From Paenibacillus sp. OVF10 (GTDB lineage Bacteria > Bacillota > Bacilli > Paenibacillales > Paenibacillaceae), in the NCBI GenBank assembly GCA_022836915.1, contig CP094668.1:4712001-4776000 (forward strand): DNA of 64,000 nt, written 5' to 3'. The position numbers were made by a program, and so were the translations under genes. Each line of letters starts with the position of its first letter. Positions within the stretch are counted from its first letter, which is position 1. Positions 378 through 64,000 of this stretch are shown in pieces. The notes under the pieces were generated by a model, which saw only the letters and a list, made by a program, of their open reading frames with translations, was not told the origin of the DNA and ran no database searches.

Positions 378-1392
378 ATGATTACCATTTACGATATTGC
401 CAAAAAAGCCAACGTCTCCGCCATGACGGTCTCCAAGGTCATTAATCATACAGGCCGCATAAGTTCCGCGACACGTGAACGTGTGCAACAGGTGATCGAC
501 GAACTGGGTTACATCCCGAACTCCAATGCACGCAGCCTTGTGCTTCAACGAACCCAGATGCTCTCCTGCTCATTACGGATATTACCAACCCTTTTTATAC
601 AACACTGGCCCGTGGTGCTGAAGATGCAGCCCATCTTCGTGGGTACCGTCTTTTATTCGGCAATAGTGACGAGGATTACAAGAAGGAAAAGGATTACGTT
701 GATGCGATTCTGTCTACTCGTGTGGATGGTGTACTCTATGCCCCTGCGGGGATCGTTCTCTTCCTCATCTGAAACAGCTGCAGGAACGTCACATTCCGTT
801 TGTCTTTCTGGACCGCACCGTACCTGGCATTACGTCAGATATGATTGCCGGAGATAGCCGGGAAGGCGCGATTGAGCTGATCCGCTACCTGGTGCAATTG
901 GGGCACCGGCGCATTGCACTGGTCAATGGTTCTTCGGAGGTTTCTACCGCCAGACTGCGGGAGGAAGGTTATATAGCGGGTTTGCGTGAGGTCGGAGCTG
1001 ATATCGATCCCGAGCTTGTGCTTCGAACCGGGTACCGGGATTTCAGTGATGACGAGGGACTGGATCGACTACTCTCTCAACCGGAGCAACCAACAGCCAT
1101 TTTTGCAGCCAACAACATGCTGGCGATTGGGGTCATTCGGCTTTTGCGTAAAAGGGGACTGCGTGTGCCAGAAGACATCTCTGTTGTGTGCTTCGACGAT
1201 CTGGATCTGGCTTCGGCCTTCGATCCTTTCCTGACCGTAGCTGCACAGCCCGCATATGAATTTGGGTTTCAGGGAGTACAGATGCTGATTGACCGGATTG
1301 AGGGCAAGGCTCCTTCCCAAGCCCAAACCGTCATTTTACCGTCAGAATTGCGCATACGTGCTTCAGCTACTGCTCCACGTGAGCAAGAATAG
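378..1392 (+). CDS. LacI-family transcriptional regulator (two frame breaks)
   Basis: This is a sugar-responsive repressor of about 338 residues once the frame is restored. The N-terminus carries the LacI helix-turn-helix (YDIAKKANVSAMTVSKVIN), followed by the hinge helix and a periplasmic-binding-protein-like effector domain ending RIRASATAPREQE. The frame breaks twice. Near 553-562 the text moves from TQM to LLLITDITNPFY in the next frame. At the G4 run 748-751 PAG continues as DRSLPHLKQLQ in the third frame. Both breaks fit single missing bases. The start at 378 follows a GGAAAGG element. The palindrome at 276-297 is a likely operator. No sugar gene adjoins it inside the window, so the effector and regulon are unknown. 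Confidence 0.85.
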
Positions 1393-1487
1393 AGTTAAGC
1401 GCGTGAGTTGACTAAATATTATCGTGTAAATGATTAGTCCCACTTATCTAGATTAGGTCCCGTTCAAATTCGAAAAATGTACAACAT

Positions 1488-1530
1488 AAACAGGGTGCAC
1501 CGGAGATTACGCTCTGGTTGCACCCTGTTT
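1488..1530. terminator. Bidirectional terminator between convergent genes
   Basis: AAACAGGGTGCA (1488-1499) pairs perfectly with TGCACCCTGTTT (1519-1530), and the stem extends inward through CCGGAG/CTCTGG. It sits between the LacI gene (ends 1392) and the leftward epimerase gene (ends 1622). Confidence 0.8.
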
Positions 1531-1621
1531 GATGTTCATTCGTTAGAATGACCCGTTCGTCTGGACCGATTGGTTCGTCAGGTTCATTCAATTTCATTTT
1601 GGTTCCATCCAAGCCGATATT

Positions 1622-2514
1622 CTACCGCTCCGACTGTAATGCAAGAGCGACCTCACGAACGAGTCCCGGGAACCAGTCCATCAGAGGTTCGAACGTATAC
1701 CCCGCTTGTTCTGCCTTGGTTGTCTCCATCGTCCATGATTGCTCAATTCCGAAGGGGACATGTCCTCTTTTACGGTTTCCGTGAGGATCTGGGACTGCAT
1801 ACCCGTGACTGTCTCGATCAGATGTATCATGGCTGACAGCGTAATCGCACCCTTGGAAGCTGCATTCACCGGACCAGTAATGGACGAATGTCCAAGCCAA
1901 GCGAGAAATCTTGCCGCTTCGGTGGAATTGATAAATCCAATCTCCGCATCCGGATTTGGCATGCCAATCGGTTTTCCTTTTTGCACATGTTCAATATGAA
2001 AATGAAGTCTTCTCGTATAATCATCAATTCCGAGAACAATTGGAATGCGCATCGCCACAACCGGGAAATCCGCTTCCTGGAAAAATACAGCCTCCGCAAG
2101 CCGTTTGCCTTCTCCATACGAAAAATCCGCCGCACTCCCATACTGTAATGGATATGTATACGGGTCAAAATCCGTTTCCTTAAATCCAGGTCTGGGATCA
2201 CCGTACACCGAGAGTGTGGATGTCAGAACGTATCTTTTGGTGCGACCTGCAAAAGCTTCACATGCCGCTTTCGCTGCATCCGGTGAATAACAGATATTGT
2301 CGTACACAACATCCCACATGTCTGTCTGCGCAACCTCTGCCAGAGATTCCGGGTCTTCACGATCCATCTTGATTCGGTTTACTTCGGGTCCGAAGTCAAC
2401 ATCCGTTTTACCACGAGTTGCGACTGTGATCTGAGACTTCCCTTCCCACAGCAAGTGATCCACCAGACGTTTACCAAAAAAACGTGTACCCCCAAGTATA
2501 AGAACTTTATTCAT
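1622..2514 (-). CDS. Extended SDR, NAD-dependent epimerase/dehydratase-like (one frame break)
   Basis: This is a Rossmann-fold oxidoreductase or epimerase of about 297 residues. The N-terminal nucleotide-binding motif is GGTRFFG, the active-site region reads TSTLSVYG, and the catalytic YxxxK pair is YGEGK. The start is the ATG at 2514, with AGGAGG seven bases upstream, rather than the slightly longer reading from 2538. Near the C-terminus the frame changes at the G4 run 1754-1757: EDMSP continues as FGIEQSWTMETTKAEQAG to the stop at 1622, as expected if one C of the coding strand is missing. It starts 20 bp after the methyltransferase gene, so the two are probably cotranscribed. The substrate is unknown. 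Confidence 0.8.
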
Positions 2515-2534
2515 CCAAAAACCTCCTATCTTGT

Positions 2535-3296
2535 TCAATTATGTTTAACAATTTGAAGCATGGTGTGAGCATTCCGTTGAAACTCATATGAAGTTGGTTC
2601 TTCGGATACCGTGCACCCACGCTCTTCGAGTATTAATTTTAATTCATCCATGTGTTTGTAACGTTCGCCAGACAGATCAACTGTTGGAAAAATGCGAACT
2701 TCTCGTTTGCTCACACGCAGTAGTTCCATCACGGTTGCAAGATGAAAATCAACATCCAATCGATCCGCATACGTAAACAGGAAATGGGCGGATAACGTCA
2801 GATCGAATTGTTCATCCGCAAAGGGTAGATCCGGGAGCACAGACGCCACATAACGGTCAGGAAACATTCTCATATCTGCGACGCAATCTGTAATGGCACG
2901 AGTTCGCTCTTCCTTTAACCCCTGGATTGATCCAAATTGATCCCACACATATATGCCTTGCACCGGTTCCATCTGTTTCATCGTATGCTCAATGTCCTGA
3001 AATCCCTTTACTTCAAGCTCCTCGATCTCGTATTTGTAGGCCATATCCACGGCCACGGGATTAGCACCCAACTTGCGCGCCTGGCTACTGAACGAACACG
3101 CTCCACCTGGACAATCCAGAATGGACTTGCCTGTAAGATCCTCCACAGTCAGGTTGAACATCTTCATATATTCCTCGAAGGTTCTTCCTATGAAAACAAT
3201 TTGTTTCAGTTTCAAACCACCAGAATCATTGAACTCCTGATCTTCTCGGCTGTTCTTCTGACGCTCTCTACTGTTGCTCTGCTCATCTCTACTCAT
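2535..3296 (-). CDS. Class I SAM-dependent methyltransferase
   Basis: The protein has 253 residues. A hydrophilic 25-30 residue N-terminus precedes a Rossmann methyltransferase core with motif I ILDCPGGACSF, an acidic strand end (VAVDMAY), and a later segment FDLTLSAHFLFTYADRLD typical of class I methyltransferases. The substrate cannot be told. It is upstream of and close to the epimerase gene (20 bp to that gene's ATG) and follows the Gfo/Idh gene by 30 bp, so the three form a leftward operon. The SD (AAGGAAG) is somewhat far from the ATG at 3296, so the true start could be slightly downstream. Confidence 0.75.
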   Translation of the reverse strand: MSRDEQSNSRERQKNSREDQEFNDSGGLKLKQIVFIGRTFEEYMKMFNLTVEDLTGKSILDCPGGACSFSSQARKLGANPVAVDMAYKYEIEELEVKGFQDIEHTMKQMEPVQGIYVWDQFGSIQGLKEERTRAITDCVADMRMFPDRYVASVLPDLPFADEQFDLTLSAHFLFTYADRLDVDFHLATVMELLRVSKREVRIFPTVDLSGERYKHMDELKLILEERGCTVSEEPTSYEFQRNAHTMLQIVKHN

Positions 3297-4499: not shown

Positions 4500-5084
4500 G
4501 TGGAAAGTCCAGATCAAGATCGCATACTGCCCGAATCTATAGATGAAAAATACTGGCATGCCATCATCCACAACGATAATTCTTATGATGGAACGTTCTT
4601 TTACGGTGTGCAGACAACGGGGATCTTTTGCCGACCTTCCTGTAAGTCCAGAGCACCCAAAGCTGAAAATGTGCTGATATTTCAACATGTTGAAGAAGCA
4701 TTGGCGCGAAAGTTCAGACCCTGCAAACGTTGTAAACCAACAGGCGAGCGGGTACCTGATCAGGAGTGGATATACGGAATCACGGATTACATCGAACATC
4801 ATTACGCCGAACCTCTAACCTTGGATGTCCTTGCCACTGTAAGTCATGGCAGTCCATATCATCTGCATCGTGTGTTCAAGCGAATTACAGGCCGCACACC
4901 GGTTCAATATATACAGGAAAAACGAATCACCGAAGCCCGGAAGCTGCTTGAACATACCAGACACACCGTCACCGAGATTGGCCGCCATGTCGGTATACCT
5001 AACTCAGCTTATTTCATTACTGTATTTCGCAAACACACAGGTCTCACACCTGCACACTACCGCGAAAGGCATGAGAACTTATGA
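4500..5084 (+). CDS. adaA: AdaA: methylphosphotriester-DNA methyltransferase and AraC-type activator
   Basis: The protein has 194 residues and starts at GTG 4500 (SD GAGGTG). The N-terminal Ada zinc domain has the four cysteines C44, C48, C75 and C78 in FCRPSCKS and RPCKRC. In this family one of these takes the methyl group from an S-methylphosphotriester in DNA and so turns the protein into an activator. The C-terminal half is an AraC-type pair of helix-turn-helix motifs (LTLDVLATVSHGSPYHLHRV and TVTEIGRHVGIPNSAYF). The 3' end overlaps the next gene by four bases (ATGA), implying translational coupling. In B. subtilis adaA is paired with the O6-methylguanine methyltransferase adaB. Here the partner is a radical SAM protein instead. 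Confidence 0.9.
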   Translation: MESPDQDRILPESIDEKYWHAIIHNDNSYDGTFFYGVQTTGIFCRPSCKSRAPKAENVLIFQHVEEALARKFRPCKRCKPTGERVPDQEWIYGITDYIEHHYAEPLTLDVLATVSHGSPYHLHRVFKRITGRTPVQYIQEKRITEARKLLEHTRHTVTEIGRHVGIPNSAYFITVFRKHTGLTPAHYRERHENL

Positions 5085-5898
5085 AGACGAATCTTACTTA
5101 CAAAGTACCCAAAACGTTACTCAACAAGGGGACAGGGTTCCTTCATGGATATACACATACACTGAATCCTTACACAGGCTGCGCCTTTGGTTGTTCCTAT
5201 TGTTATGTCAGACAGATGCCTGTCTCCTTATTTCGCAAAGAGGATTGGGGGAGTTGGGTGGATGTGAAACAGGAGGCTTCTCGAATATTCGCCAAAGAAT
5301 TGCAGCGTGCCTTAATGAAAGGGAAAGTCACTCTGTTCATGTCATCCAGTACAGACCCGTATCAACCCGCCGAATACAAGGAGTGTATCACGCGTTCATT
5401 GCTTGAAACGATGGTGCAGCATCCGCCCGATTTTGTATTAGTCCAAACCCGCAGCCCACTCGTTACCCGAGATATAGATCTGCTACAGAAGTTAGGTGAC
5501 CGGGTTCGGGTCAGCATGACGGTGGAGACGGATCTGGACGATATGCGCAAGCATTTCAGTCCTTCCGCTCCCCGATTGCAGGCCGATTACATGCATTGGA
5601 ACAGTTGCGGGATGCCGGAATACCCACGCAGGTTGCGATTGCTCCCGTATTACCCAGCAGTGAACAGTTTGCAGCCATCTTGAGACCTCTGGTTCAGCGT
5701 GTATGCATTGACGATTATTTCATGGGTGATGGTAGCGAGGGCAAGCGCACCCGTCGACTCGGTATGGAGTCGCTCTATCAGCAAGTAGGGATGGAACATT
5801 GGTATCATCCAGATGCGTATCAGACTGTGGTTCAGCGGATGAAAGACTATTTTGCCGAGGATGAAATCTGGATCAGTCAGGCGGGATTTGAGCCTTAA
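5081..5898 (+). CDS. SplB-family (SPL-like) radical SAM protein (one frame break)
   Basis: This is a radical SAM enzyme of about 272 residues, related to the spore photoproduct lyase superfamily (COG1533 type). The [4Fe-4S] motif is C34-x3-C38-x2-C41 in GCAFGCSYCYV. Other features are the conserved SSSTDPYQPAE segment and the strand VRVSMTVET. The frame breaks at the CC pair 5583-5584: RLQA should continue RLHALEQLRDAGIPTQV, consistent with one missing C. The ATG overlaps the adaA stop, so expression is probably controlled by AdaA. Canonical SplB is a spore enzyme. This shorter paralogue's substrate is unknown, and the pairing suggests a role in alkylation or other DNA damage. Confidence 0.8.
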
Positions 5899-6065: not shown

Positions 6066-7171
6066 TTATTTATCCAATGTATACAATGGCAGGTCCACCG
6101 GCAACGCAGCCGGGCGCTGACATGAACTTTTCATCTGGTAGAATGTCTGTTCATCTGATGAATCATGGAATGCCCACATGGCCTCAAGAACATGGTATGC
6201 CAGTTCCCCACTTGCCCGGTGTGCACGTCCGCTATTAGCTGCATAGGCCATATCTGCCACACCAATCCCGCGTGTATTTTCCTGATACCCTGGGAGAAGC
6301 GGAACTTCCGTCCATTCATGCTCACCTAACAAACGGTAACGAACGGGACCGCCAAAGGTATTGGGGTCAGGCACCTGTAATGTACCGTGCGTGCCATATA
6401 TCTCAATCGGTGGCAATGTACTTCCGCCAAATACGTCAAAACTCGTAATCAGTGTGCCAATAGCCCCCTGTTCAAACTGTAACAGACCGGTAACGTGAGT
6501 TGGAATTTCGACGGGAACCGTCTGGCCTCTCTTTTCTCACTCGTAATCGTGCGCTCTTCCATCGCTTTACCTGTCATACCCGCAATCGACTTGATCGGGC
6601 CCATCAGTTGAACCAATGCCGTGAGATAGTACGGACCCATGTCAAACATTGGTCCACCACCAGAGGCGTAATAAAACTCCGGATCGGGATGCCAGTGCTC
6701 ATGACCACGGCTCATCATAAATGCGGTCGCCGCCACCGGTTTGCCGATGACCCCTTCCTCCACCAATTGAAGTGAAGTCTGGATACCCGAACCGAAGAAC
6801 GTTTCTGGTGCACAACCCACAAGTAATCCTTTACGCTTTGCTGTTTCGAGCACGGCCTGCCCTTCTTCACGGGTAACAGCGAGTGGTTTTTCTACATAAA
6901 CATGTTTACCAGATTCAAGTGCCCGCAAGCATACATCCGCATGAACGGAAGGAATGGTCAGGTTGATGATCAGCTCAATCTCGGGATCAGCCAAGATTTC
7001 GTCGACGCTGTATACGTTAGGCACGTTATAGGCTGCTGCCTGCTCCTCGGCACGTTTCCGGTCGAGATCCGCAACAGCAACAAGTTCCAGCACCTCGAAC
7101 CGGTGACAGTTTTCCATATAAATTCCACTGATTTTACCGCAGCCAATAATGCCTACTTTCATTGTTTTCAT
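6066..7171 (-). CDS. Gfo/Idh/MocA-family oxidoreductase (one frame break)
   Basis: This NAD(P)-dependent sugar oxidoreductase of about 368 residues has the N-terminal Rossmann motif VGIIGCGKISGIYM and the catalytic-loop motif VEKPLA. The C-terminal domain includes GGPMFDMGPYYLTALVQLMG. Around the GG/CC site 6534-6537 the frame changes: ITSEKRE should run on as GQTVPVEIPTHVTGLLQF and then FGGSTLPPIEIYGTHG, as expected for one lost G. It is the last gene of the leftward lacI-gfo-thuA-gfo operon. With ThuA and a second Gfo/Idh protein it probably acts in a keto-sugar pathway for an unknown glycoside. Confidence 0.85.
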
Positions 7172-8063: not shown

Positions 8064-9241
8064 TCACATCTCTTCAAGCGTCACCCAGCGCCGTTCTGTT
8101 ACCGAACGTTCTACCGCTTCCAGTACAGCCTGACAAGCGACCCCATCGTGGAAACTCGGTGATGGTTGTCGTCCTTCAGAGATCGCTGTCACCAGCTCCA
8201 GCATTTCATGGGTGAACGTGTGCTCGAATCCAATCGTATGTCCGGCAGGCCACCAAGCTTCAGCATATTTATGTGCCGGATCGGTTGCCAGTACACGGCG
8301 GAATCCCTGTACGTCCTCTTCATCCTTTGTAAAATACACTTCCAGTTCATTCATCCGTTCAAAATCAAATCGTACACTGCCGAGACTGCCGTTAATCTCA
8401 AACGAGTTTGTACTCCGATGCCCCGCTGCAAAACGTGTAGCCTCGAAGCTGCCCAGCGCACCTCCTGCGAATCGTGCCAGGAACAGCGTAGCGTCGTCGA
8501 CGGTCACTTCTCCTTTGGGTGCATCCGCATTCGAACTGCCCTTTGCACTCAGTCCGGTCATCTCGGCTGCAAGTGGTCGTTCTTTGATGAAGGTTTCGCT
8601 CATGCCGATGACTTCCTGGAATTCACCAACGAGGAAACGAGCCAGATCGATTAAGTGTGCGCCCAGATCCCCATGGGAACCAGAGCCAGCCACTTCTTTT
8701 GCAAACGCCATACCAGCGGGAACGAAGGGTCCATGATCCAGTCCTGCAGGAAAAAAGCACGGAAATGATAGATTTTACCCAATCGTCCACTCTCCACCAG
8801 ATCTTTGGCCAACTGCACCGCTGGTGAGAAACGATAATTGAACCCGACCATATGGGCTACTCCAGCATCCTCTGCTGCCTGAAGCATCTCACGCGAATCC
8901 GCAAGCGACAGGGCCAGTGGTTTCTCACAAAACAGATGTTTACCCTGACGAGCCGCTTCCAACGCAATTTCCTTGTGGGCATCACTTGGTGCATTAATAT
9001 CAATCAGATCGATATCATCCCGCTTCACTAGTTCACGCCAATCAGTCACACTTTCGGACCAGCCGAACTGATCCGCTGCCTCCTGCACTCCCTGCTCGTT
9101 ACGTCCACAGATCACAGACATCTCAGGCTGCAGCGGAGCAGACGGGAAAAACATCGGCAGACTGCGATAGGCATTACTGTGGGCCTTCCCCATAAACTTG
9201 TATCCAACCATTCCGACACGAAGACGATTTGACATGGTCAT
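8064..9241 (-). CDS. Gfo/Idh/MocA-family oxidoreductase (one frame break)
   Basis: The protein has about 390 residues. The Rossmann start is LRVGMVGYKFMGKAHSNAYR, the family motif FCEKPLALS follows, and a long C-terminal domain contains GSGSHGDLGAHLIDLARFL, which carries the family's catalytic-region GxHxxD pattern. The frame breaks at 8697-8700: WRLQ continues as KEVAGSGSHGDLG once a fifth A is restored. AAAGGAGGAA precedes two ATGs; 9235 has the better spacing (8 bases) than 9241. It directly follows the lacI gene (gap 48 bp) and is the first structural gene of the sugar operon. Confidence 0.85.
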
Positions 9242-16692: not shown

Positions 16693-17211
16693 TCAACTTA
16701 CGGTTTCCTCGGCTGATTTTTCCTTTATCGCACAACGTTCCCCTGCCTTGCGTACCGCCCGAATAATGCCACCGTAGCCGGTACAACGACACAGATTCCC
16801 GCACAATCCCGATTCAATCTGTTCTTGAGAAGGCTCAGGATGTGCATCCAGTAATGCCTTGGTTGAGATCACCATGCCCGGAGTACAGTAGCCGCACTGG
16901 AAGCCACCTTCCTCCACGAAAGCTTGTTGGATCGGATGCAGAGTGCCTTTCTCCTCGCCGTGCAGGCCTTCAATGGTCGTAATGTCACTTCCATCACATT
17001 GATAAGCCATGACAAGACAGGAATTCACGGGCTCTCCATCCATCAGAACCATACATGCACCGCAGCGACCAACTTCGCAGGATACTTTGGTACCCGTTAG
17101 TTGCAAATGAGTCCGAAGCACATCGACAAGTCGGGTCGTTTGCGCGATCTCCAGATGTTTCTCTTCACCATTCACAACGGCTGTCCAGTGATTCTCAAGT
17201 GGTTTACTCAT
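16693..17211 (-). CDS. pucE: Xanthine dehydrogenase, 2Fe-2S subunit
   Basis: This is the electron-transfer subunit of xanthine dehydrogenase, 172 residues. The ferredoxin-like N-terminal cluster motif is CEVGRCGAC plus a later Cys (NSCLV). The alpha-helical C-terminal cluster motif is FQCGYCTPGM and CGNLCRC. It carries electrons from the molybdenum centre (PucD) to FAD (PucC). The ATG overlaps the pucD stop by four bases, so the two are translationally coupled. It is the last gene of the cluster. Confidence 0.92.
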   Translation of the reverse strand: MSKPLENHWTAVVNGEEKHLEIAQTTRLVDVLRTHLQLTGTKVSCEVGRCGACMVLMDGEPVNSCLVMAYQCDGSDITTIEGLHGEEKGTLHPIQQAFVEEGGFQCGYCTPGMVISTKALLDAHPEPSQEQIESGLCGNLCRCTGYGGIIRAVRKAGERCAIKEKSAEETVS

Positions 17212-19646
17212 GATGGACTCACTCCTTCCTGCAAGGGTACATTCAAAGGTCTGACCAGTTGTTCCCTCGGTACAGGAAGACGGTTAACCCATACACCTGT
17301 CGCCTGATGAATTGCGGCTGTAATGGCTGGCGCAAGCGCTACGGAACCAATCTCACCAATCCCCCTTGGTCCAAACGCATCACCTTCGGGTAAGTCTTCA
17401 ATAGCCTCAACCTCCAGATTGGTATGAATATCCTGAATGGTTGGGATCAGATACGTGTCGAGGTTAGTGGTTACATAACGGCTGTCCTGCATGACCGCAT
17501 CCTCGGTCAACGTGAATCCAAGCGCCATGACACTGCCGCCTTCAATCTGTCCGATAAAGCCCATAGGGTTGATCACCGGGCCTGCCGCTACAACATGGCG
17601 TGTATCCAGCAGCTTGGTTTCTCCGGTCAAAGTATTTACTTCCACCTCTGCCGCAACCGCCGCATACGTATACAAATAATGCCCGCCTACCACATTGTCT
17701 GGCGTAGTTGGGTAATCAAACTTTGTATCAAAAATCCATTCATCGGCTTCGCCCTGCGTCACGAGTTCAGCATACGAGATAACTAAGCCTGAAGGTGCTT
17801 CCTCTTTCGCCAAGTATTGAGATGCACCTAAATAACTTTCAGCAATTTGAGTACTTCCAGTCCCTTCAGCAACGATCTCAGCCACTTCAATTCTTTCAGC
17901 CTTTTCTGGTGTTTCCGCTTCTGAACTTTCGGCAGGAAGCTGGCCTTTACGCCATATACCACCAGGCCCTGTCACCAGTTCATCTGCCGGAACGCCGGAC
18001 ATTTCAGACGCGACAGCGAGAACACGGGAACGAAATGGAGTCTGCAGTCGTTGAAGAGCCATCCATGCCATCGTTGTTGAACGTGAAGCTGTACTTGATC
18101 CGCTGTGTGGCACACGATCCGTATCTCCAATGATGATACTGAGATCCGATGTACTGCATAGGAATAGATCACATAACATAATTTCCAGCGTTGCAATAAG
18201 CCCCTGACCAAATTCCTCGTAGCTGAACGCCACCTCAATCTTGCCTTCGTTATTCAGGGACAGGCGGCCTCCCGCAGGGTCCGGAATCCCGTATCCCAGC
18301 CCTGCACCGTGCATGGCGATGGCTGCTCCGACTCCACGCTTGATCCATGGCAGAGAAGGATCTACCGGGGGTTGCTGATGTTTTTGCCACAGTTCGGAAT
18401 GATTCAATGCCTCCCATACTTGAGACAGTCCATCCGTGACCAGAATGCGTTGATTCAGTGGTCCGGGATCATTCTTTTCCCTCATATTACGTCTGCGGAA
18501 CTCCCAAGGGTCCATGTTCATGATTTCTGCAAGCCGATCCATCTGGCCTTCCATGGCAAAAATCGCCTGGTTCCCGCCAAATCCGCGAAACTCACCTGAC
18601 AGCCCGTTATTCGTATACACAGACACACCTTCCACATCCACATGAGGGATGGCGTATGGTCCTAGACAATGCTCGGTACAGAAATTCAGCACCGGTGCAC
18701 CCAATGTGGCATACGCGCCCGTATCTGCTGTAATACGGACACGATGCGCTTGGATGATACCTTCCTGGCTCATACCGGTCTTCATTTCAATCTTCATTGG
18801 GTGCCGTTTCAACCCTGCACGCACGGATTCTTTACGTGAATTATGCATTTTCACAGGACGCCAGCATCTCAAGGCCAGTAATGCACCATAGGGCTGTACG
18901 TTGAGTTCATCTTTTCCGCCAAATGAACCACCAATCGGTGAAGACACCACCCGAATATCTTCTTCAGGACAGCCAATAATACGCGCAAGCTGCATCCGGT
19001 CTTTATAGCCATGTTGCGTTGCCGCGTATACATTCAGCCTTCCCTCTTCATCCGGGACAAACAGGCCACCTTCTGTCTCCATGTAAGCATGCATCTGGCG
19101 AGGCGTATAATACGTCTCAGTCACGATATGATCACAAGTGGCAAAAGCTTGCTCGGTATCTCCACGTTTGATCTCCGTGCGATGCAGCACATTACCTGGA
19201 CCATGCTCATGCAACTCTGGTGCTCCGGGAGCCAAGGCAGCGTCTGTACTATTCAGTGGAGCGAGTTCCTCATACTCTACGCGAATCGCATCCAGCGCAA
19301 GTGCCGCACGTTCCGGAGAATCCGCAGCAACTGCTGCTATGGCATCCCCAACATAACGTACAATATCCTCGCAGAACACAGGCTGATCCGGGGTCGCTAT
19401 GCCAAAACGATTCAGACCAGGTACATCTTTGGAAGTCAGAACCGCATAGACGCCATCCAACGCCTCAGCTTCCGAAGTATCTATAGACAATATGCGAGCA
19501 TAAGGATATTCGCTTCGCAATACTCTGCCATGAATCATATCAGGTAGCGTCATATCCGTCAGATATTGAAGCTGGCCTGTAACTTTGGGTACCCCATCTG
19601 GCCGCAAGTGCCAGCGTTTCCCGCTCTGTTTCCGATTCAGCAGCAT
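17208..19646 (-). CDS. pucD: Xanthine dehydrogenase, molybdopterin-binding subunit
   Basis: This is the catalytic subunit that oxidises hypoxanthine and xanthine to urate; 812 residues. The start is ATG 19646 with GGGAGAGGG upstream; a reading from 19700 overlaps nothing useful and lacks such a site. Conserved features are the Moco-binding PIGGSFGGKDE, the FRGFGGNQ segment, and the C-terminal GPRGIGEIGSVALAPAI containing the active-site glutamate. Residues near 590-650 form an acidic Glu/Ala-rich insertion (ESSEAETPEKAER) that makes it longer than the B. subtilis protein. It sits between pucC and pucE. Confidence 0.92.
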   Translation of the reverse strand: MLLNRKQSGKRWHLRPDGVPKVTGQLQYLTDMTLPDMIHGRVLRSEYPYARILSIDTSEAEALDGVYAVLTSKDVPGLNRFGIATPDQPVFCEDIVRYVGDAIAAVAADSPERAALALDAIRVEYEELAPLNSTDAALAPGAPELHEHGPGNVLHRTEIKRGDTEQAFATCDHIVTETYYTPRQMHAYMETEGGLFVPDEEGRLNVYAATQHGYKDRMQLARIIGCPEEDIRVVSSPIGGSFGGKDELNVQPYGALLALRCWRPVKMHNSRKESVRAGLKRHPMKIEMKTGMSQEGIIQAHRVRITADTGAYATLGAPVLNFCTEHCLGPYAIPHVDVEGVSVYTNNGLSGEFRGFGGNQAIFAMEGQMDRLAEIMNMDPWEFRRRNMREKNDPGPLNQRILVTDGLSQVWEALNHSELWQKHQQPPVDPSLPWIKRGVGAAIAMHGAGLGYGIPDPAGGRLSLNNEGKIEVAFSYEEFGQGLIATLEIMLCDLFLCSTSDLSIIIGDTDRVPHSGSSTASRSTTMAWMALQRLQTPFRSRVLAVASEMSGVPADELVTGPGGIWRKGQLPAESSEAETPEKAERIEVAEIVAEGTGSTQIAESYLGASQYLAKEEAPSGLVISYAELVTQGEADEWIFDTKFDYPTTPDNVVGGHYLYTYAAVAAEVEVNTLTGETKLLDTRHVVAAGPVINPMGFIGQIEGGSVMALGFTLTEDAVMQDSRYVTTNLDTYLIPTIQDIHTNLEVEAIEDLPEGDAFGPRGIGEIGSVALAPAITAAIHQATGVWVNRLPVPREQLVRPLNVPLQEGVSPS

Positions 19647-19678
19647 GATCCCTCTCCCCTTTGCTTGATCCCATTCAT

Positions 19679-45259: not shown

Positions 45260-45264
45260 TAAGA

Positions 45265-45776: not shown

Positions 45777-45820
45777 ATTGATCCATCCTCCGCTTCCATA
45801 CTTGATTTTGTGTAAGGGTA

Positions 45821-45887: not shown

Positions 45888-46005
45888 TTTGTCTTGCTTG
45901 CATCTCCAGCATGATTGAAACCTAAATTATTCCAGCCCGTATGTATTGGGTAATGGATACACGAAATCATATTAACCAACAAGATTTGCAAATGAGGTGT
46001 ATAAC

Positions 46006-46649: not shown

Positions 46650-46658
46650 GCATGCAAA

Positions 46659-46696
46659 GAAGCTGTACGATGACCATTACGTCACCATACAGCTTC
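46659..46696. terminator. Bidirectional terminator
   Basis: GAAGCTGTA pairs with TACAGCTTC, and inside it TGAC pairs with GTCA. It lies between convergent genes ending at 46649 and 46720. Confidence 0.75.
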
Positions 46697-46719
46697 ATTC
46701 GTTACAATTTCGATCCGGC

Positions 46720-48036
46720 TTACGCGCCTTCTTCTTCAACCAACAGTTCCAGCTTAATCACATTTACTCGGGAAATTCGCTTATGCTCTGTCTCTTGAAT
46801 GACAAATACATAACCCCCATACTCAACCGATTGACCGACCTCAGGTGGAATGGCATCTACTCTGGAGTATAACCAGCCTCCAATGGTATCGTAATCAGCA
46901 CGGTCCATCTCCAGTCCAAATCGTTCACTGACTTCTTCAATCAGCATCAATCCATCAATGGAGTATTCCATCTCATCCACTTGCTCAATGGCAGGACGTT
47001 CTTGGTCGAATTCATCCTGAATCTCGCCTACGATCTCTTCCATGATATCTTCAAGTGTGACAAGCCCGGAGGTTCCGCCGTATTCATCAATCAGAATCGC
47101 AATCTGTGTCTTGCTACGCTGCATACGCTTGAGCAGATCACTGATCAGCGTGGTGTCTGGCACAGCCAGGATGGGCCGGATTACGGAGATGGTATCCGTG
47201 AGTTGGGATCGCATTAGATCCTTAATGTGAATAAAGCCGATAATATGATCCTTGTCTCCGTTATACACCGGATACCTTGTTCGCATACTTTCGCTGGCAA
47301 TCTCCAGATTCTCCAGCATGGACTCATTGGCATTCAGACAGATCATCTCCGTCCGCGGAATCATAATTTCACGGGCGGTTGTATCCGTAAAATCAAATAT
47401 ATTATCAACAAGTGCTAATTCAGTGTTATCAATTAAACCGCTCTTATTGCTTTCTTTCATGAGAATACGTAATTCATCTTCACTATGCGCGTCGTCCATC
47501 TCCGAAGCTGGTGCCATTCGGAACAGTCTCAACAAGCCGTTAGCCATACCGTTCAGTGCCCATATGAATGGATACATTAACTTGTAGAAGAACGTTAGCA
47601 AAGCCGCAGACCACAACGTGATCGTCTCAGACTTTCGAATCGCCATCGTTTTGGGAGCAAGTTCTCCCAGTACAATGTGCAAGATCGTAATAATCACAAA
47701 TGCAATGGCAATAGAGATTCCATGAACGTAGACTGGTCCCAGTCCAAATGCGGTAAACACGGGCTCTAACAGGTGTGCAATTGCCGGTTCTCCCAGCCAC
47801 CCGAGTCCCAGTGAAGCCAAAGTTATACCTAGTTGGCAAGCTGACAGATATGCATCCAGATTACGTACGATATTGGAAGCATAGATGGCATTTTTGTTGC
47901 CTGTTTCCACCAAAGCCTCAATCCGACTTCCACGAACTTTCACCATCGCAAATTCCGCCGACACAAAGAAACCATTCATTAATACAAGTAAACCAATTAA
48001 TACTAAATTTAAAATACTCGGTAAGGGGTCACTCAA
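46720..48036 (-). CDS. CNNM/CorC-family membrane protein (DUF21-CBS-CorC)
   Basis: The protein has 438 residues and is intact. The N-terminal DUF21 membrane domain has four hydrophobic segments, starting LNLVLIGLLVLMNGFFVSAE and including LGITLASLGLGWLGEPA and HIVLGELAPKT. Two CBS domains follow (DTTAREIMIPRTEMICL, and FIHIKDLMR to EDIMEEIVGEIQDEFD). The end is a CorC_HlyC domain (YDTIGGWLYSRVDAIPP). Such proteins are linked to Mg2+/Co2+ transport or efflux, although older names call them hemolysins. Confidence 0.88.
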   Translation of the reverse strand: MSDPLPSILNLVLIGLLVLMNGFFVSAEFAMVKVRGSRIEALVETGNKNAIYASNIVRNLDAYLSACQLGITLASLGLGWLGEPAIAHLLEPVFTAFGLGPVYVHGISIAIAFVIITILHIVLGELAPKTMAIRKSETITLWSAALLTFFYKLMYPFIWALNGMANGLLRLFRMAPASEMDDAHSEDELRILMKESNKSGLIDNTELALVDNIFDFTDTTAREIMIPRTEMICLNANESMLENLEIASESMRTRYPVYNGDKDHIIGFIHIKDLMRSQLTDTISVIRPILAVPDTTLISDLLKRMQRSKTQIAILIDEYGGTSGLVTLEDIMEEIVGEIQDEFDQERPAIEQVDEMEYSIDGLMLIEEVSERFGLEMDRADYDTIGGWLYSRVDAIPPEVGQSVEYGGYVFVIQETEHKRISRVNVIKLELLVEEEGA

Positions 48037-49840: not shown

Positions 49841-51413
49841 CTACTCAATCTCCACTACGGTTTCAGAAGTGGGGTTCCAGCGCCATCTGGCTTGTTTCCC
49901 GGTTGGGTTATGCAATCCACCGATCCAGAATTCATCCTGCTTCAGCAGTGCCCAATCGACTTCTTCATTCAACACCTTAATTCCGAGTTCCGTTAGCGAC
50001 AGGACACCGTCACGGAATTTTTCATCATGTTGCTTGAAATTAGGGAACGTGGTTGCACCGCTCATCTGAAGCAGGGCATGAGGTCCTTCTGTCATCCGCT
50101 TCAGATGTGCCCAGTATTCAAGATCACCCAGACCGAGAATATGCAGCTTGTCCCCTACCTCGCGAAATAATGGATACGGATGCTCCACACCTGCTCTAAT
50201 GGTCTCTAGTGTTGTCTGCTCAATGAGCCCCAGACCGTTCGATACAGATGGCAGACGGGACAAATGTGCCTTAAAGGCAGCTTTTGCAAAGGGTAGCGCA
50301 GAAGTGTCTGCCTGCAAGTAATCCAGATGATGCCGGAAATCAGTCGACGTATAGGCTTCCCAGAACTGTGCACCGGCTTGTAACTCGTTTTTCTCAATCA
50401 CATGCCAACTGCCTGACAGCCGTTCAATCTGTGTGGAGGTAAGCTGTCCCAGTCCTCTAAAGTGCTCAATCTCTGGATACGAGTCAATACAGAGCAGATT
50501 CAGTTTCGTATTCTGGAGTGCTTGTCCTTTGAAATAATGTAACAGATACGATAACATCGTCTGATCATAGAGATCGTATTCGAACCATAAGACAATTTCC
50601 TTGTATTGTTGAAACGAATGCAACTTGCGTTCAAGCTCCTCAATCTTCAAGTATACTGCCTGTGGAATGCCCAACTGCTGCTCTAACACGGATGCCCGAT
50701 TCTGCCGCTCCTGCGTATCTCCCATCTCTTTGGCTACCGGGCCGAACGTATACAACTCTCTCCATACCAGGATGTCTCCCTGAATTCCACTCTCTTAAAC
50801 GATTAGCAGCGTGATCCCCATTCATAATGTGTAACAATCCTTTTCCCCCTTCATACAAGTCACTGAATACAGAGACCAGATCCCTTACAGGCATAGAGCG
50901 CTTGAGTTTGGATCGGGCATCGAACAATCTTTTCTTTAATGCAGGTACTTTGACCCCGAGAAAATCCGATATTTCCTTGAGCGAGTATCCTTCCAAATAA
51001 AACAGTTCAACAGCAATCCGCATCGATGATGGCAGTATTGCAATGGAATCACGAAGCGTACGATGCATTTCATTTTGCACCGCTTGTTTTTCCGGATTAT
51101 GCGCCTGATCCTCTTCATGGAATACATGCTCCAGCTCCTGAACTGGAATCATGGCATGCTGCTTGCGTCTTAGCCAGCGATAACACTGCCTCTCCACGAT
51201 CACCTTGAACCACCCGGGAAAAGCCTCAGGAGCTTCCAGCTTGGACAGATTGCCAAAGGCTTCAGTAAACGCCTCCTGCACGACATCTTCTGCCCAAAAT
51301 GTATCCCCCAGTCGGTGGTAGGCAACAGCAAGTGCCATCCCGCGATATTGAGACATCAGTTGTGCGTAAGCTTCGGGTTCGCCCTTCATCGCTCCTTCAA
51401 TCCATGAATTCAA
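49841..51413 (-). CDS. ECF sigma factor fused to a DUF1835-type domain (one frame break)
   Basis: The protein has about 525 residues from TTG 51413 (AGGGAG upstream). Residues about 1-185 are a sigma-70-like factor: region 2 EDVVQEAFTEAFGNLSK and FPGWFKVIVERQCYRWLRR, region 4 LFYLEGYSLKEISDFLGVKV with LKKRLFDARSKLKR. After a short linker the same frame enters LLHIMNGDHAANRLRE, the opening of a DUF1835 domain, which continues in another frame as SGIQGDILVWRELYTFGPVA through about 330 residues to VVEIE. The break is at the CTCTC (coding GAGAG) repeat 50790-50795 and fits loss of two bases or gain of one. Because the DUF1835 start lies in the sigma frame, a fusion is more likely than two genes. 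Confidence 0.78.
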
Positions 51414-52753: not shown

Positions 52754-54497
52754 TTAAGGCTTGGCTTCAATCCAATAATCATAGGCATGAACAATGTTGC
52801 CTTGGTAAGCCTGATGTTCGGCCAGCAGATCCGGAAGCTTGGCAAGCTGAAGTTCCATCTCCGCTGCCCCTTTTTCATAAAAAGAAATATGAGGACCTTC
52901 GTGGTTCTGCTTCATTTCTACCGAAATCATTAACCTTTTTCCAAACGATCCGCGATCTCCATCTCCTGGCTCACAACAGCAGCAATCCCATTGGAACCTT
53001 CGGCGTTGTTACGGAAAGCCATCAGCGACACATGATCGAGTGTACGGATCATAAATTCAGCCACAGATGTATCCTTTCCTGGCAACGCGAAGCTATCCAG
53101 CCATACAGCAAGGTCTGCGCTTGTTTCGAGATCACTGTCCTTCTTCGTTTCTTCCTGGAAAAATGTAATGTTGGCAGCCCATTCGATCAACAGGGTGTCC
53201 CGACTATTCTCCCACTCTGGCAAAGTGTACGGCTCAATATCCAGATGGATGCCTTCAAATCGTTCATCCGGCTCGGATTCAGCATTATAGTTTTTCACAT
53301 AATCAATCAATCGCTTAATGCGTGGACGATTCTCCTTTTTGCCCCAGATGGGGTGTCCACCCATCGCATGGATCTCAATGCCCTGCGCTTTTGCCCGTTT
53401 CACAAAACTGCGGTAACTGGAATAGGGTTGATCCAGGTCCAAACGGACATACAACCAGTTAATATTCTGCTCTCTAGCAAACGCTAGTATGTGCTCTCCC
53501 CGTCATTTGTCACCTGAGAGGCCTCCCAGATATACGTTCCCCGAATCTCTGGTTGATTGGATGGAATCTCCGGTGATGGCAGTTCTGATGGCTCCAGTTG
53601 TCCCCAGTATACGATGTCATGTACAGCAGAACCTGCGTAGGAACTATGTTCGCTGAATGCGGAGGCAACTTCTTCAATAACGCTTTCCAGTTGTGCTGCA
53701 CCTTTACCGGCAAATGTCGTGAACTCCTCGCCAGGCATTGGCTTGGTGTTCAACCCAACCGTAACGCTCACATTGCTAGTATCGGCCCAGTTCATTTCCT
53801 GTTCAATTAAACGTATAATACCATTGTTCCCTTGCGCGTTATCACGGTAAGCGAGTAAAGTGACATGCTCCACTCGTTCAATGAACCAACGTGACAATGG
53901 TTCGTTATCTGCATCCTCAGAAACTCTATTTCCTGTGACGGTGTAGGAATCCAGCCAAAATGGCAGGTCAATATTCACTGCAACTGCGCCATCCTGTCTC
54001 ACTTGCTCAAATAACAGATTCATATTGGCTACCCAGGATTGTACCAGTGGCTTAGCATCTTCTTTCCAGGCTGGTAACACATAGGGCTTGATATCCAGAT
54101 GTATGGCATCAAATTGCTCGTTGGTCTCAGCAGCTTGATTGTAATCACTTACCCACGAGGCTAATCTGAGCATGGGACCTTCACGACCACTGATTGCCCA
54201 GGATGGATCGCCTCCCAAAGCTTCAACCGCAATACCCGCACGGCTGGCTTTGGCTATAAACGTCTGGTATACCTCCTTGGGCATCGTCATGTCTACATTC
54301 ACGTACAGTCTGTTTATCTTATGTTTAGCTGCATTGGCCAACAGCTCATCTCCGTTGCTAACAGACTGTGCCTGCCATACCCAGGCCGCCCGTATATCTG
54401 CGCCGTCAGCTTCAGCAGGTGACTCATTCCCTATCATTATCATCCCTCCGATCAGCAGTAACAGCCAAAATACCTTCCGGGATTGTTTCCCGAACAT
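52754..54497 (-). CDS. Secreted protein with two tandem copies of a barrel-like domain (two frame breaks)
   Basis: The protein has about 582 residues from ATG 54497 (GGAGGAGTAT upstream). A signal peptide covers residues about 1-31 (VFWLLLLIGGMIMIGNESPA). Two copies of a domain of about 250 residues follow. Copy 1 has IRAAWVWQAQSVSNGDELLA, FDAIHLDIKPYVLPAWKEDA, FWLDSY and VTLLAYRDNAQGNNGIIRLI. Copy 2 has IRGTYIWEASQVTNDGGEHI, FEGIHLDIEPYTLPEWENSR, VWLDSF and VSLMAFRNNAEGSNGIAAVV. Breaks at C4 53498-53501 and T5 52936-52940 each fit one missing base. The second repair extends the protein to 52754 (RLMISVEMKQNHEGPHISFY ... WIEAKP). Strands ending in IHLDI and LAYR suggest a TIM-barrel hydrolase fold. 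Function unknown. Confidence 0.75.
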
Positions 54498-54562
54498 ATA
54501 CTCCTCCATTCCTCTACTGTTGTAAAATCACATTTATTATAGCAACCGAGTTATTAAAAACA

Positions 54563-54640: not shown

Positions 54641-55387
54641 CTAGTCCTCATATATCATTTTTCGGGTCATGCCTCCATCAATAACGAGGTTGGTCCCTGT
54701 GACAAAGGTATTGCTTGGATCAGATAAATATAGACAAGCACGGGAGATATCCGAAGGAACACCCACACGACCGGAGGGATGCTGTTCATGATCCTCCTTT
54801 TTCAATTTCTGCACGTCACCTGTCTCAATCCATCCCGGACTGATACAATTGACCCGAATTTGGTCCTTGCCCAGTGAGACCGCCAGCGCATGCGTTAGAG
54901 CTACAATCGCTCCTTTGGATGCGGCATAAGCTTCGGTATCCGGCTCAGACATCAGCGCACGGGTAGAAGCCATGTTGATAATGGCACCTCCATGTTCATT
55001 GCTTTTCATATGTTTGGCTGCTTCCCGACTCGCCAAAAACAACTTCTCACATTGGTATTGAGTACATCATCCCATTCTTCCAGCGTTAGCTCATAGGGTG
55101 ACTTCCACTTGGCGAGTCCTGCATTATTCACTAGAACATCGATTTGCTTGAATTCTTCCACGGTTGTACGAAAAAGATTCGTAATATCCTGCTCGCTCCG
55201 AACATCACATTGAACAAAGATGGCTTCTCCGCCTTCATTACGAATGGAAGCTGCTGCTGCTGCCCTCCGCTTCCTTGTAGTCAGCAAGTACAACTTTGGC
55301 CCCAGCGACCGCATAAGCCTCAGCCACACTCCGTCCGATTCCCTGAGCGGCACCAGTTACAACAACAACCTGATCTGTAAATGACAT
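54641..55387 (-). CDS. Short-chain dehydrogenase/reductase (two frame breaks)
   Basis: The protein has about 248 residues from ATG 55387 (GGAGG eight bases upstream), reading MSFTDQVVVVTGAAQGIGRS with the TGxxxGIG cofactor motif. Later motifs are NNAG (VDVLVNNAGLAKWKS-like), the catalytic S in NMASTRAL, YAASK with the catalytic YxxxK, and the C-terminal DGG. The frame changes near 55262-55270, in or before a CAG/GCA repeat, and again at A5 (coding T5) 55035-55039, where CF should continue LASREAAKHMKSNE. The first change fits one added base or two lost bases; the second fits one lost T. Substrate unknown. Confidence 0.85.
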
Positions 55388-55500
55388 ATTCATTGCCTCC
55401 TCTATGGTAATGATCCTTTGATCATAATTTCATTATGCCTCTTCTTATATAAATACACGTCAGGGCCATTAAGAAACGCTTGTCCAGTAAATAATCAAAA

Positions 55501-56278: not shown

Positions 56279-57408
56279 TCATGCTAATTGTGTGATCACA
56301 AGATGTGCGGATACAGGTCTAGTTCCGCCCGCAAGTGGCGTGATTGTTAATGCTGTAGCATTACCAGCCGGGTTCCGCACGGTCAGAATAGAATTAATCA
56401 CGGTTGTCTGCACCAAAGCCATACCAACAATCTGAGACGTTCCCGTTGCTCGCCCAACTACAGTAGGAGCCAAATCTGCCCCATTGAGAGTTAAGATTAG
56501 TTGACCTGCTTCATTGATGCTCACCTGGAACAAAATCTGATACGTACCAATGGCTGCTAGATTGAATGCACTAGGCCCCGTGCGGGCGATAGTTGTTCCA
56601 CTTGTTGGCCCATCCTGAGGAAAGCTTACATCTGTACCGGGAGCAACCGTTGCTGCATTATCAGGTGGCATCAGTGCGAAAAAGTCAGCGAATCCCAGTA
56701 CGCTTCCGGCTACTCCTGTTGCACCTGTAGATCCTGTTGCCCCAGCGGGACCCGCTACTCCCGTTGCACCTGTCGGACCTACTGCTCCAGCAGGACCCAC
56801 GGCTCCTGTTGCACCAGCTGGGCCTGCCGGGCCTACAGCTCCAGCGGGGCCTACAGCTCCTACTGCTCCTGCAGGACCTACAGCTCCTGCTGCACCGGCT
56901 GGGCCTGCCGGGCCTACAGCTCCTGCAGCTCCTGTCGCACCCGTCGGCCCAACAGCTCCGGGAAAACCTTGAGGTCCAATCGCTCCGGCAGGTCCGGGAT
57001 TACCCTGCGGACCTTGTGGTCCTACAGCCCCTGCTTCTCCCGGAATCCCCTGTGCTCCCACGGGGCCAGCAGGTCCCACCGGACCTTGAGCGCCTACCGC
57101 TCCAGCAGGACCTGGCTGTCCCTGAGGTCCTTGTGGTCCAGGTGGCCCTCCTGCTGGTCCTTGAGCTCCAGGTGGCCCTTCTACCCCTTGTTTACCTGGA
57201 ATACCTTGTAAGCCTTGAACGCCTTGTATACCTTGTGGTCCTGTTGGGCCAACAACAGTAGGGTTAGATATGTTCACTTCTGGAGGCGGACATTTTACTT
57301 GAACGAATTTTTTAACCACTTTCAGTCGGCGGTCTTTTCTTTTAACTTTACATGGATGTAATGTTGCCTTTTTCTCTTCATACGTTTCTTCACTTCTGAA
57401 TAACTCAC
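56279..57408 (-). CDS. Collagen-like triple-helix protein with BclA-type C-terminal domain
   Basis: The protein has about 376 residues. A basic N-terminal region ([20 protein letters not shown]) leads into about 60 Gly-X-Y triplets rich in GPQ, GPA and GAV with one register break ([10 protein letters not shown]). A C-terminal domain of about 135 residues follows, with hydrophobic strands typical of exosporium BclA-like trimers ([20 protein letters not shown]). An open frame starts at 57433, but the only good ribosome binding site (GGGAGGTG) lies inside it. The better start is GTG 57408 ([13 protein letters not shown]), joining the main frame if one A is missing at 57369-57373. It is probably a spore-surface filament protein. 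Confidence 0.82.
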
Positions 57409-57614
57409 AGTGTGGACACCTCCCTATAGACATAGTTTAACGTACGTATGCAGATGAATAGATGCGTGGACGAACAACCAATTTAATTAAAAAACTCCGC
57501 TGATTATCAGGTAAAACAATAAAATCGTTAGCAACTGCCTATATGTTTAATCTATTTTGTTTAAAACCATCGATTAGAGTGAACTGGTTTACGTGAGGAG
57601 ATTGGTTCACCAAA

Positions 57615-61812: not shown

Positions 61813-62238
61813 TTAAATATTATTCTTATCACTGAACTCAATGCAAAAAGGTTGCATCTCAGGGTTTAAGCAATACTCTATTCTTTCTCTGAAGTTTTTC
61901 CATTCGACTTTTAAAATGGCTTCTTCGATCGGAAAGAAACCAGACTCTAAGCTCTCCGTTGATGTGATTAATTCTCCTCCTTTTGGTTTGGCTAGAAATA
62001 ATGTGTTACATATTGAATTCTCGATATTTTGAAATATTCCACAGAATTTGATGATTTCGATGTCGATTCCGGACTCCTCTTTTGTTTCTCTGATCGCAGC
62101 TTGACTTAGAGATTCTCCTTCTTCCACTTGACCACCTGGCATTTCCCATCCTCTTCGGGGTCCTCTAATAAGTAATAATTCATTTTTGTCGTTTATCACG
62201 ATTGCAGCGGCAGATAAGATATGTTTTGGAGGGCTCAT
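61813..62238 (-). CDS. Nudix hydrolase
   Basis: The protein has 141 residues from ATG 62238 (AAGGAG eight bases upstream); an open frame to 62343 lacks a site. The Nudix box is GGQVEEGESLSQAAIRETKE followed by ESGID. The domain starts HILSAAAIVINDKNELLLIR. It starts 58 bp past the APH-family gene and lies downstream of it on the same strand. Confidence 0.87.
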   Translation of the reverse strand: MSPPKHILSAAAIVINDKNELLLIRGPRRGWEMPGGQVEEGESLSQAAIRETKEESGIDIEIIKFCGIFQNIENSICNTLFLAKPKGGELITSTESLESGFFPIEEAILKVEWKNFRERIEYCLNPEMQPFCIEFSDKNNI

Positions 62239-62296
62239 TTGTTTTACTCCTTCTAAAGAGATTGGATATGCATTTGAAGAACAATTTATAGCCAGA

Positions 62297-63076
62297 CTAA
62301 AAGAAGTTATATATCCCGTCTTCAAAATAATTATATTCTTCATCCGTTATTCTTGACTTTCCATACCCGTTATAAAATATTTCTCTATCTCTTTCATTAT
62401 CAAACGCATTATGTTTCGGTCTAATGGCTAATGCTACATCATATCTTGGATCGCCATAAGCGGCACCTGCCCAGTCAATAACTCCAACAATATTGCAATC
62501 ATTAACTAGCACATTATCTATAGTAAAATCTCCATGAATGAAAGTGTTTTCTATTGGTTTTGGTTTTGCTTCTTTTAACTGTTGAAGTAGTTCTGCTGAT
62601 CCGTCTACAGCAAAGTGAGTTAGATTATATTCTGCTTTATTAAGCATTGTATCTAACCAAGGAGTGTCATTGTTCAATAATTCAACAGGACAAGAGCATT
62701 CATGTATTTTCTTTAGACAAAGCCCAAAGTTAAAAATCGCTTTTTCTTTACTCTGGAGGTCAGGCATCTTAGAAAGAAATTCTCTTAAACTTATTCCATC
62801 AATATAATCCATCAGAAGCCATCTTGATGTCTCCTCAGTATGAAATGAATATACCTTTGGAACAGGGAGTCCCGTTTGGTAAAGGTATTGAAGCACCTTA
62901 TATTCATCTAATAACCATTCATTATAAAGATCGTTTTCTGTCTTCTTAATGATGTACTTTTGGTCGAACGTATCCAGAATAGCCACAGTAGAAGTATGAC
63001 CTTGCTTAGGAAAAGTGATTTTCTGAACTTTCCCTATATATTCTTTTATTTCAATTGGAAGATCCTGAATATTCAT
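62297..63076 (-). CDS. Aminoglycoside phosphotransferase (APH)-family kinase
   Basis: The protein has 259 residues with a protein-kinase-like fold: an N-lobe with KYIIKKTEND, then LLMDYIDGISLREFL. The catalytic loop is FIHGDFTIDNVL (HGDxxxxN) and the metal-binding segment is GVIDWAGAAYGDPRYDVALA. It may phosphorylate an antibiotic or another small molecule. AAAGGATG precedes ATG 63076. Confidence 0.85.
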   Translation of the reverse strand: MNIQDLPIEIKEYIGKVQKITFPKQGHTSTVAILDTFDQKYIIKKTENDLYNEWLLDEYKVLQYLYQTGLPVPKVYSFHTEETSRWLLMDYIDGISLREFLSKMPDLQSKEKAIFNFGLCLKKIHECSCPVELLNNDTPWLDTMLNKAEYNLTHFAVDGSAELLQQLKEAKPKPIENTFIHGDFTIDNVLVNDCNIVGVIDWAGAAYGDPRYDVALAIRPKHNAFDNERDREIFYNGYGKSRITDEEYNYFEDGIYNFF

Positions 63077-63097
63077 GGTTTCATCCTTTCTACTGCT

Positions 63098-64000
63098 CTA
63101 AAAGTACAAATCCCATCCCATAATAAAACCAGCAAATAGGAAAGCAGACATGCCAGACATGATGTATACCGCCTTTTGCTTTTTACTATAGCTTCTTTTC
63201 AGCAGTTTGTAGAACAACAAAACAAGATACGCCATAGCTAGAATCACATAAACCAGGTTCAAAATGAGATGGATGCGTAATGAAGAATAGGGGAAAAGCC
63301 TAAGGCGCGCATAAACAATAGGATCGTATTTAAAATTAATGCCAGACTGGCAATATTAATGGCAATATGATATTTATCAAATCCTGTGCCGGGTCTTTCC
63401 CAGTTTTTTAATCTGTATTTGGATAACCGAATAAAATAACCAATTATCGCTCTCAAACTGAGTAGGATGGCTACTGGAAGAGCAATACAAGATGCTTTGA
63501 TCAAGTTTATCGTTAAATTGGATACGGGCAAAAAGTCATTATAAGAAATGGAGACCTTCTCAACTGTTCCGTTACGCTCAACAACATTTGCAAAGTTACT
63601 AAGGTCAAATGTTGTATACTTCTGCAGACTTAACATTGAATATGCCTTCGTAAAACCGGAAACAACCCGTCGCGCAGGCAGATAATATCCTCCACTCTCA
63701 GATTCAACTGAATTCGTGCTGAAACTACTTCCAAACACCTTCTGGACAAGACCAACGTTATAAGCCATTTCATTTGACTGGTTTGTCATGACCGCGAATC
63801 CAAACTTAGACTCCGGATCAAAAACAAATTTACTTGTAAATCCAGCCGTACTTCCAGCGTGTTCCAGTGCAGGCACCCAGTACTCTACTTCAAAGAAACC
63901 ATGTGCAATACGAGGAGTTGAAGTCCCATCGTAATATAGACTTGTTGACAGCATCTCGTCTAAGGTGTCATTGTTCTCAAATAATAAATTACTACGATCC
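63098..64000 (-). CDS. Serine hydrolase (beta-lactamase family) with C-terminal membrane domain, partial (one frame break)
   Basis: The gene runs off the right edge; the last visible codons upstream read DRSNLLFENNDTLDEMLSTS. The visible part contains GFFEVEYWVPALEHAGSTAG and KFGFAVMTNQSNEM, typical of the end of penicillin-binding/beta-lactamase-like serine hydrolases. It is followed by a domain with several membrane helices (LIKASCIALPVAILLSLRAI, ASLALILNTILLFMRALG). A break at A4 (coding T4) 63294-63297 hides the true end: ALGFFPYSSLRIHLILNLVY continues through two more helices to GFIMGWDLYF and stop at 63098. Related to Bacillus membrane serine hydrolases of unknown substrate. Confidence 0.75.

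Follow-up and report, generated by a model that had tools for sequence, protein, structure and literature searches.

Two described cases stand closest to the sequence analyzed here. In a study of nanopore reads, deletions dominate the errors, accuracy drops above runs of five identical bases, and C/G runs fare worse (PMC8486125). The Kastor report on a long-read Pseudomonas assembly gives a completeness of 92.2% with 23.3% pseudogenes before correction, against 99.7% and 5.6% after it, and places most of the errors of this nanopore case in A/T runs (PMC12007338). We have examined the broken reading frames in a stretch of 64,000 nucleotides from the soil bacterium Paenibacillus sp. OVF10 (contig CP094668.1, positions 4,712,001 to 4,776,000; hereafter the window), and in two further regions of the same genome.

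The frame breaks are most probably an artefact of sequencing and assembly in an under-polished consensus, the real genes being whole at nearly all sites; we put the probability of this at about 0.97. We favor it because the losses are private to one of four genomes, run in one direction, depend on run length, are evenly spread, take no account of gene function, and strike essential genes. On this reading the breaks are not a biological feature. The consensus of the single-contig assembly would have been left incompletely polished. The base caller or the consensus step would underestimate the length of identical-base runs, mostly by one base and sometimes by two, and would rarely drop a base outside a run. 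At nearly every one of these sites the gene is most likely whole in the real chromosome. Judged by the error profile alone, the platform was probably a nanopore-type long-read method, and the loss in runs of 6–8 bases appears to fit nanopore errors better than those of PacBio. The analysis was made entirely on assembled consensus sequence.

The window belongs to a single-contig genome of 7,243,271 bases with a completeness of 89.42, compared with 99–100 in 11 genomes of the same genus. One window protein used as query found 32 loci, nearly all in Paenibacillus, and the close ones (83–98% identity) come from amylolyticus, xylanexedens, taichungensis, pabuli and their kin. The assembly is placed in the Paenibacillus amylolyticus/xylanexedens/pabuli group. 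Three Paenibacillus relatives (G011, G002 and G008), mostly 89–97% identical to the window and collinear with it for most of its length, were aligned with it four ways. This gave 55,171 columns common to all four, with 9,585 window bases outside. The further regions are the 140 kb that follow the window and a stretch of 80 kb centered on the ribosomal/RNA-polymerase cluster (34.5 kb of the latter covered four ways), bringing the total to 210,866 four-way columns. The counts leave out any stretch with a difference of more than about 60 bases in a relative, along with chunks adjoining large size differences (8,859 bases in the window and 20,521 in the 140 kb). Window stretches with no alignable relative (about 48.3–49.7, 58.3–58.9, 59.5–60.1 and 60.5–61.8 kb) were excluded from the frame test. 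They also omit a minor difference near 63290, for which the alignments to G011 and to G008 gave different positions. Indels were kept only where at least 16 of 24 flanking columns were identical. Gene models are the longest non-overlapping frames of G011, uncurated; the window holds 66, of which 45 are covered to at least 80%.

In the window, 39 losses of one or two bases and three one-base gains are private. The losses comprise 34 of one base and five of two, in the alignment pass that underlies all counts given here; an earlier pass with different chunk edges gave 33, six and two one-base gains. Twenty-eight of the private indels shift the frame, and they fall in 21 of the 66 gene models, the same 21 being found among the 45 well-covered ones. 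They comprise 23 one-base losses, four two-base losses (34414, 44509, 50790 and 55263) and one one-base gain (46720). The corresponding numbers in the same models of G011, G002 and G008 are 1, 0 and 2. We matched G011 proteins to the window frames as a check on gene edges and compensation, which covered the window models of this genome only. On this basis 21 of the 28 indels split 17 genes lastingly. Three (24587, 24706 and 24733) cancel inside a gamma-glutamyltransferase gene, and four split no gene (19656, compensated relative to G011; 36590 and 57369, both at gene starts; and 46720, at a gene end). A further one-base loss, at about 46512, splits an 18th gene; it lies beyond the four-way set and appears in comparison with G011 and three other relatives (L034, L035 and L039). 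The window total is therefore 18 genes split and one garbled.

A sequence-only reading of the window had claimed about 28 breaks in 22 genes. The number of frame-shifting indels agrees, with 28 in 21 models, but only 18 split genes are confirmed, plus the garbled one. The alignment to close relatives that it proposed shows that the relatives carry the longer run at most sites. The individual breaks that it named in fumC (37971), pucG (26757), pucH (29784), the MBL-fold gene (39923) and the second M29 gene (42712 and 42984) are all real differences from the relatives, as are the two-base losses at 34414 and 50790. A gain that it placed at 44509–44513 is instead a two-base loss in the four-way alignment.

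Over the three regions the private losses and gains of one or two bases number 130 and 7, compared with 11 and 14 in G011 (one of these losses being an artefact of joining two stretches), 8 and 9 in G002, and 35 and 25 in G008. The bias toward loss differs from that of the pooled relatives with Fisher p = 9e-15. With no threshold on the flanks the values are 135 and 12 here, and 14 and 20, 11 and 13, and 46 and 31 in the relatives. The density of losses is 0.71 per kb in the window, 0.59 in the next 140 kb and 0.57 in the ribosomal/RNA-polymerase cluster, which is even (p = 0.60). Private substitutions in the same regions fall from 14.9 to 11.6 and 5.3 per kb, a 2.8-fold range (p = 2e-38). Losses that stay even while substitutions thin out in a conserved cluster are the pattern expected of errors made outside the cell. 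Gene models in the three regions contain 95 frame-shifting indels here and 4, 1 and 11 in the relatives, while those outside models number 44 here and 22, 20 and 53 in the relatives (Fisher p = 3e-18 for the inside/outside split). Among the well-covered models, at least one frame-shifting indel is found in 21 of 45, 40 of 103 and 10 of 28 in the three regions respectively, some of these leaving the gene unsplit.

The losses depend strongly on run length. In runs on whose length the three relatives agree, the run is shorter here in 6 of 3678 cases at three bases, 5 of 900 at four (0.6%), 15 of 254 at five (6%), 19 of 74 at six (26%), 14 of 25 at seven (56%) and both of two at eight. Among these runs of 2 to 8 bases there are 64 losses and 0 gains, none being longer here than in the relatives. 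Each relative in turn shows 0, 0 and 1 changed among 55–56 six-base runs, and 0 of 11 at seven bases. C/G runs lose most (C5 9 of 35, C6 5 of 5, G6 1 of 1), and A/T runs lose less (A5 1 of 78, T5 4 of 137, A6 6 of 25, T6 7 of 43). A simple census of the aligned stretches (212 kb) gives the same picture. G/C runs of at least six bases number 0 here and 15, 16 and 21 in the relatives, and A/T runs of at least eight number 1 here and 10, 11 and 7 in the relatives. Such a census is a quick test of assemblies of this kind that requires no reads. The sequence-only reading had described the breaks as almost all single missing bases in runs of identical bases. Most are of that kind, with 111 of the 130 losses falling at runs of at least three bases in a relative, but 19 lie elsewhere.

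Several of the broken genes are ones that a cell should need. The genes gyrA, polC, leuS and valS, named by NCBIfam matches over the cut-offs, are essential in Bacillus subtilis. They carry one, one, two and two private one-base losses respectively, at sites where the relatives have runs of five to nine bases. Their frames are whole in all three relatives, the only difference being an in-frame 12-base loss in gyrA of G008. The pieces flanking each loss match G011 at 99–100% (gyrA residues 1–314 and 325–854; polC 1–544 and 553–1439; leuS 1–18, 46–674 and 691–814; valS 12–52 and 58–888). There are also two losses in ispD. Frames are shorter here than in the relatives for a MutS2-type gene, at 768 compared with 798, and for two GTPase genes, at 439 compared with 546 and 563 compared with 664. 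Together with the even density, the split of gyrA, polC, leuS and valS shows losses that are independent of gene function and of selection, apart from a weak deficit per run in gene models that is given below.

Some observations weigh against the artefact, or limit its reach. No relative has a run of at least three bases at the 19 exceptional losses. The relatives have natural small indels as well, the greater part of them intergenic, and a share of the 130 losses must therefore be real. Losses per run of at least five bases are slightly fewer inside gene models (35 of 287) than outside (15 of 75; p = 0.09), a weak deficit that is perhaps due to longer runs outside genes. The sites at 46720, 55040, 55263 and 45628 could be natural differences. 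The single loss in rpoC lies about 230 bases from the gene end by hand computation, and may matter little. RpoB-, IleS-, EF-G-, EF-Tu- and IF-2-type genes and that for a second topoisomerase, labeled by family and length, have whole frames here, which is nevertheless compatible with the observed density of losses.

The reading that stands best beside a pure artefact takes most of the listed sites as artefact and a handful as real differences. This is a serious possibility, falling somewhat short of even odds. The gain at 46720 is outside a run and at the last codons of its gene, the loss at 55040 falls outside any run of the same base, the indel at 19656 is offset when compared with G011, and the relatives themselves show a few frame-shifting indels in the same models. 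Such a mixture is compatible with the artefact and only refines it.

A real mismatch-repair-deficient mutator, in which slippage in runs escapes repair after the loss of mutS and breaks accumulate over the whole genome, is very improbable. Indels in runs are a known mark of the loss of mismatch repair, the losses here are mostly in runs, and mutS (TIGR01070 over the cut-off) is itself in three pieces in the assembly, through losses of the same kind. Two private one-base losses, in runs of 4–6 (contig 4899333–4899887), leave it with an open frame of 658 residues compared with 968–970. Yet chance alone would give a gene of that length about 1.5 losses. A mutator should produce gains in runs as well as losses, and would still need the gyrA and polC that are split here together with leuS and valS. 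There is no excess of private substitutions, with counts of 820, 1402 and 189 here, 1046, 1508 and 264 in G011, and 828, 1858 and 316 in G002. We have therefore rejected the mutator on the split essential genes, the absence of gains in runs and the ordinary substitution counts. The split mutS is a trap, in which the artefact imitates its own false cause.

Mass decay of genes into real pseudogenes in a degenerating lineage would account for the many frames open only as pieces, and is less probable again. Decay would raise the ratio of nonsynonymous to synonymous private single-base codon changes (N/S) in broken models. The observed value is 0.140 in models with indels and 0.166 in those without, so there is no relaxed selection, and decay was rejected on this comparison. 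The overall N/S is 0.153 here, against 0.161, 0.195 and 0.149 in the relatives, and private nonsense changes number 3 against 0, 3 and 3. The three regions contain two private losses of at least four bases, size differences above about 60 bases being skipped. The genome size of 7.24 Mb lies inside the genus range of 5.4–7.6 Mb, and the split essential genes argue against decay as well.

Restoration of the frame by slippage, in RNA or on the ribosome, is known for some insect symbionts, and real short runs rescued in this way would explain how a cell with split essential genes can live and show a low N/S. But losses per run are at least as frequent outside gene models as inside, they strike C/G runs, dinucleotide repeats and bases beyond any run as well, and three relatives keep the longer runs, leaving this as remote as decay and its genome-wide form, with essential genes included, a shade more so.

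The evidence thus returns to the artefact, and to the earlier proposal of uncorrected sequencing indels in place of gene decay, which is upheld by losses that are one-directional and dependent on run length, by low N/S and by the split essential genes. The affected genes of the window are collected in Table 1.

Table 1. Genes of the window affected by private indels or by the one further loss at about 46512, with positions numbered from the first base of the window.
Gene and state	Position (strand)	Indels	Family match or remark
LacI-family regulator gene, split	378..1392 (+)	one-base losses 566, 748	NCBIfam matches all below cut-off
Epimerase/dehydratase-like gene, split near end	1622..2538 (-)	one-base loss 1757	PF01370
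Radical SAM-type gene, split	5081..5898 (+)	one-base loss 5570	NCBIfam matches below cut-off
Gfo/Idh/MocA oxidoreductase gene, split	6066..7171 (-)	one-base loss 6532	PF01408
Gfo/Idh/MocA-type dehydrogenase gene, split	8064..9241 (-)	one-base loss 8697	below cut-off (levoglucosan dehydrogenase as best match)
Xanthine dehydrogenase subunit D (pucD), whole, no break	17208..19700 (-)	indel 19656 near start, compensated vs G011	TIGR03196 over cut-off
Gamma-glutamyltransferase gene, frame whole, garbled between losses	24274..25866 (-)	one-base losses 24587, 24706, 24733, cancelling	TIGR00066 over cut-off
Aminotransferase gene (pucG of the sequence-only reading), split	25860..27106 (-)	one-base loss 26757	
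Allantoinase gene (pucH of the sequence-only reading), split near start	28411..29894 (-)	one-base loss 29784	TIGR03178 over cut-off
PucR-family regulator gene, split	31978..33626 (-)	one-base loss 32455	PF07905, PF13556
Hybrid sensor histidine kinase gene, split	33820..36649 (-)	two-base loss 34414; one-base loss 36590 at G011 model start, non-splitting	
fumC, split	36739..38195 (-)	one-base loss 37971	TIGR00979 over cut-off
MBL-fold hydrolase gene, split	39449..40257 (-)	one-base loss 39923	PF00753
Second M29 peptidase gene, three pieces	42252..43497 (+)	one-base losses 42712, 42984	PF02073
Gene without family match, split	44266..45262 (+)	two-base loss 44509	
Gene without family match, split	45265..45786 (-)	one-base loss 45628	
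Split gene outside the four-way set	45997..46872 (+)	one-base loss at about 46512	window frame = residues 1-170 of 214 in G011
CNNM/CorC-type transporter gene, whole, no break	46719..48036 (-)	one-base gain 46720 at very end; may be natural	PF01595
Sigma-factor-like gene, putative, split	49841..51413 (-)	two-base loss 50790 in dinucleotide repeat	label from sequence
Gene without family match, three pieces	52754..54509 (-)	one-base losses 52941, 53500	
SDR-family dehydrogenase gene, three pieces	54641..55393 (-)	one-base loss 55040 (not in own-base run), two-base loss 55263	NF005559 over cut-off
Collagen-like repeat protein gene	56279..57433 (-)	one-base loss 57369 near start, altering first residues only	PF01391

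Some other features of the window were observed beside these genes. Positions 17208–33626 hold a purine-catabolism cluster, with the xanthine dehydrogenase subunit, allantoinase, aminotransferase and PucR regulator genes together with the gamma-glutamyltransferase gene; all are full-length in G011. The broken M29 peptidase gene is the second of two tandem related genes (40945–43497) that are about 69% identical as DNA by their cross-matches, and the pair is present in G011 too (410 and 415 residues). The collagen-like repeat gene is 27 bases shorter at 56859 than in all three relatives, in frame, which is probably natural variation in repeat number. A private intergenic insertion of 40 bases lies at 24231–24270, and each of the three relatives has the site without it. 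A 24-base part has a second copy with two mismatches elsewhere in this genome; a copy of this kind occurs once in G011 and once in G002, with none in G008, and the insertion may be a small dispersed repeat. The segments at 48290–49735 and 58350–61800 fall where the window is low in G+C (37–43%) and are partly lost or replaced in the nearest relatives, as variable islands.

The finding matters as a warning on data quality rather than as biology, the artefact being an ordinary one. Extrapolated from 130 losses in 210,866 columns, some 4,000–4,500 bases would be missing from the whole genome. Counts of pseudogenes, calls of start sites and claims of gene loss made from this assembly would mislead, as would the split mutS if the strain were labeled a mutator on its account.

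Compared with the described cases, the consensus differs in one respect from the Kastor assembly, whose errors are mostly in A/T runs, while here there is an excess of loss per C/G run, a point that weighs against the reading. The two are alike in that genes are fragmented and completeness is low (PMC12007338). The nanopore data of the other study are reads and not an assembly consensus, yet in both, errors are chiefly deletions and become more frequent above runs of about five bases, and C/G runs are the worse affected per run (PMC8486125).

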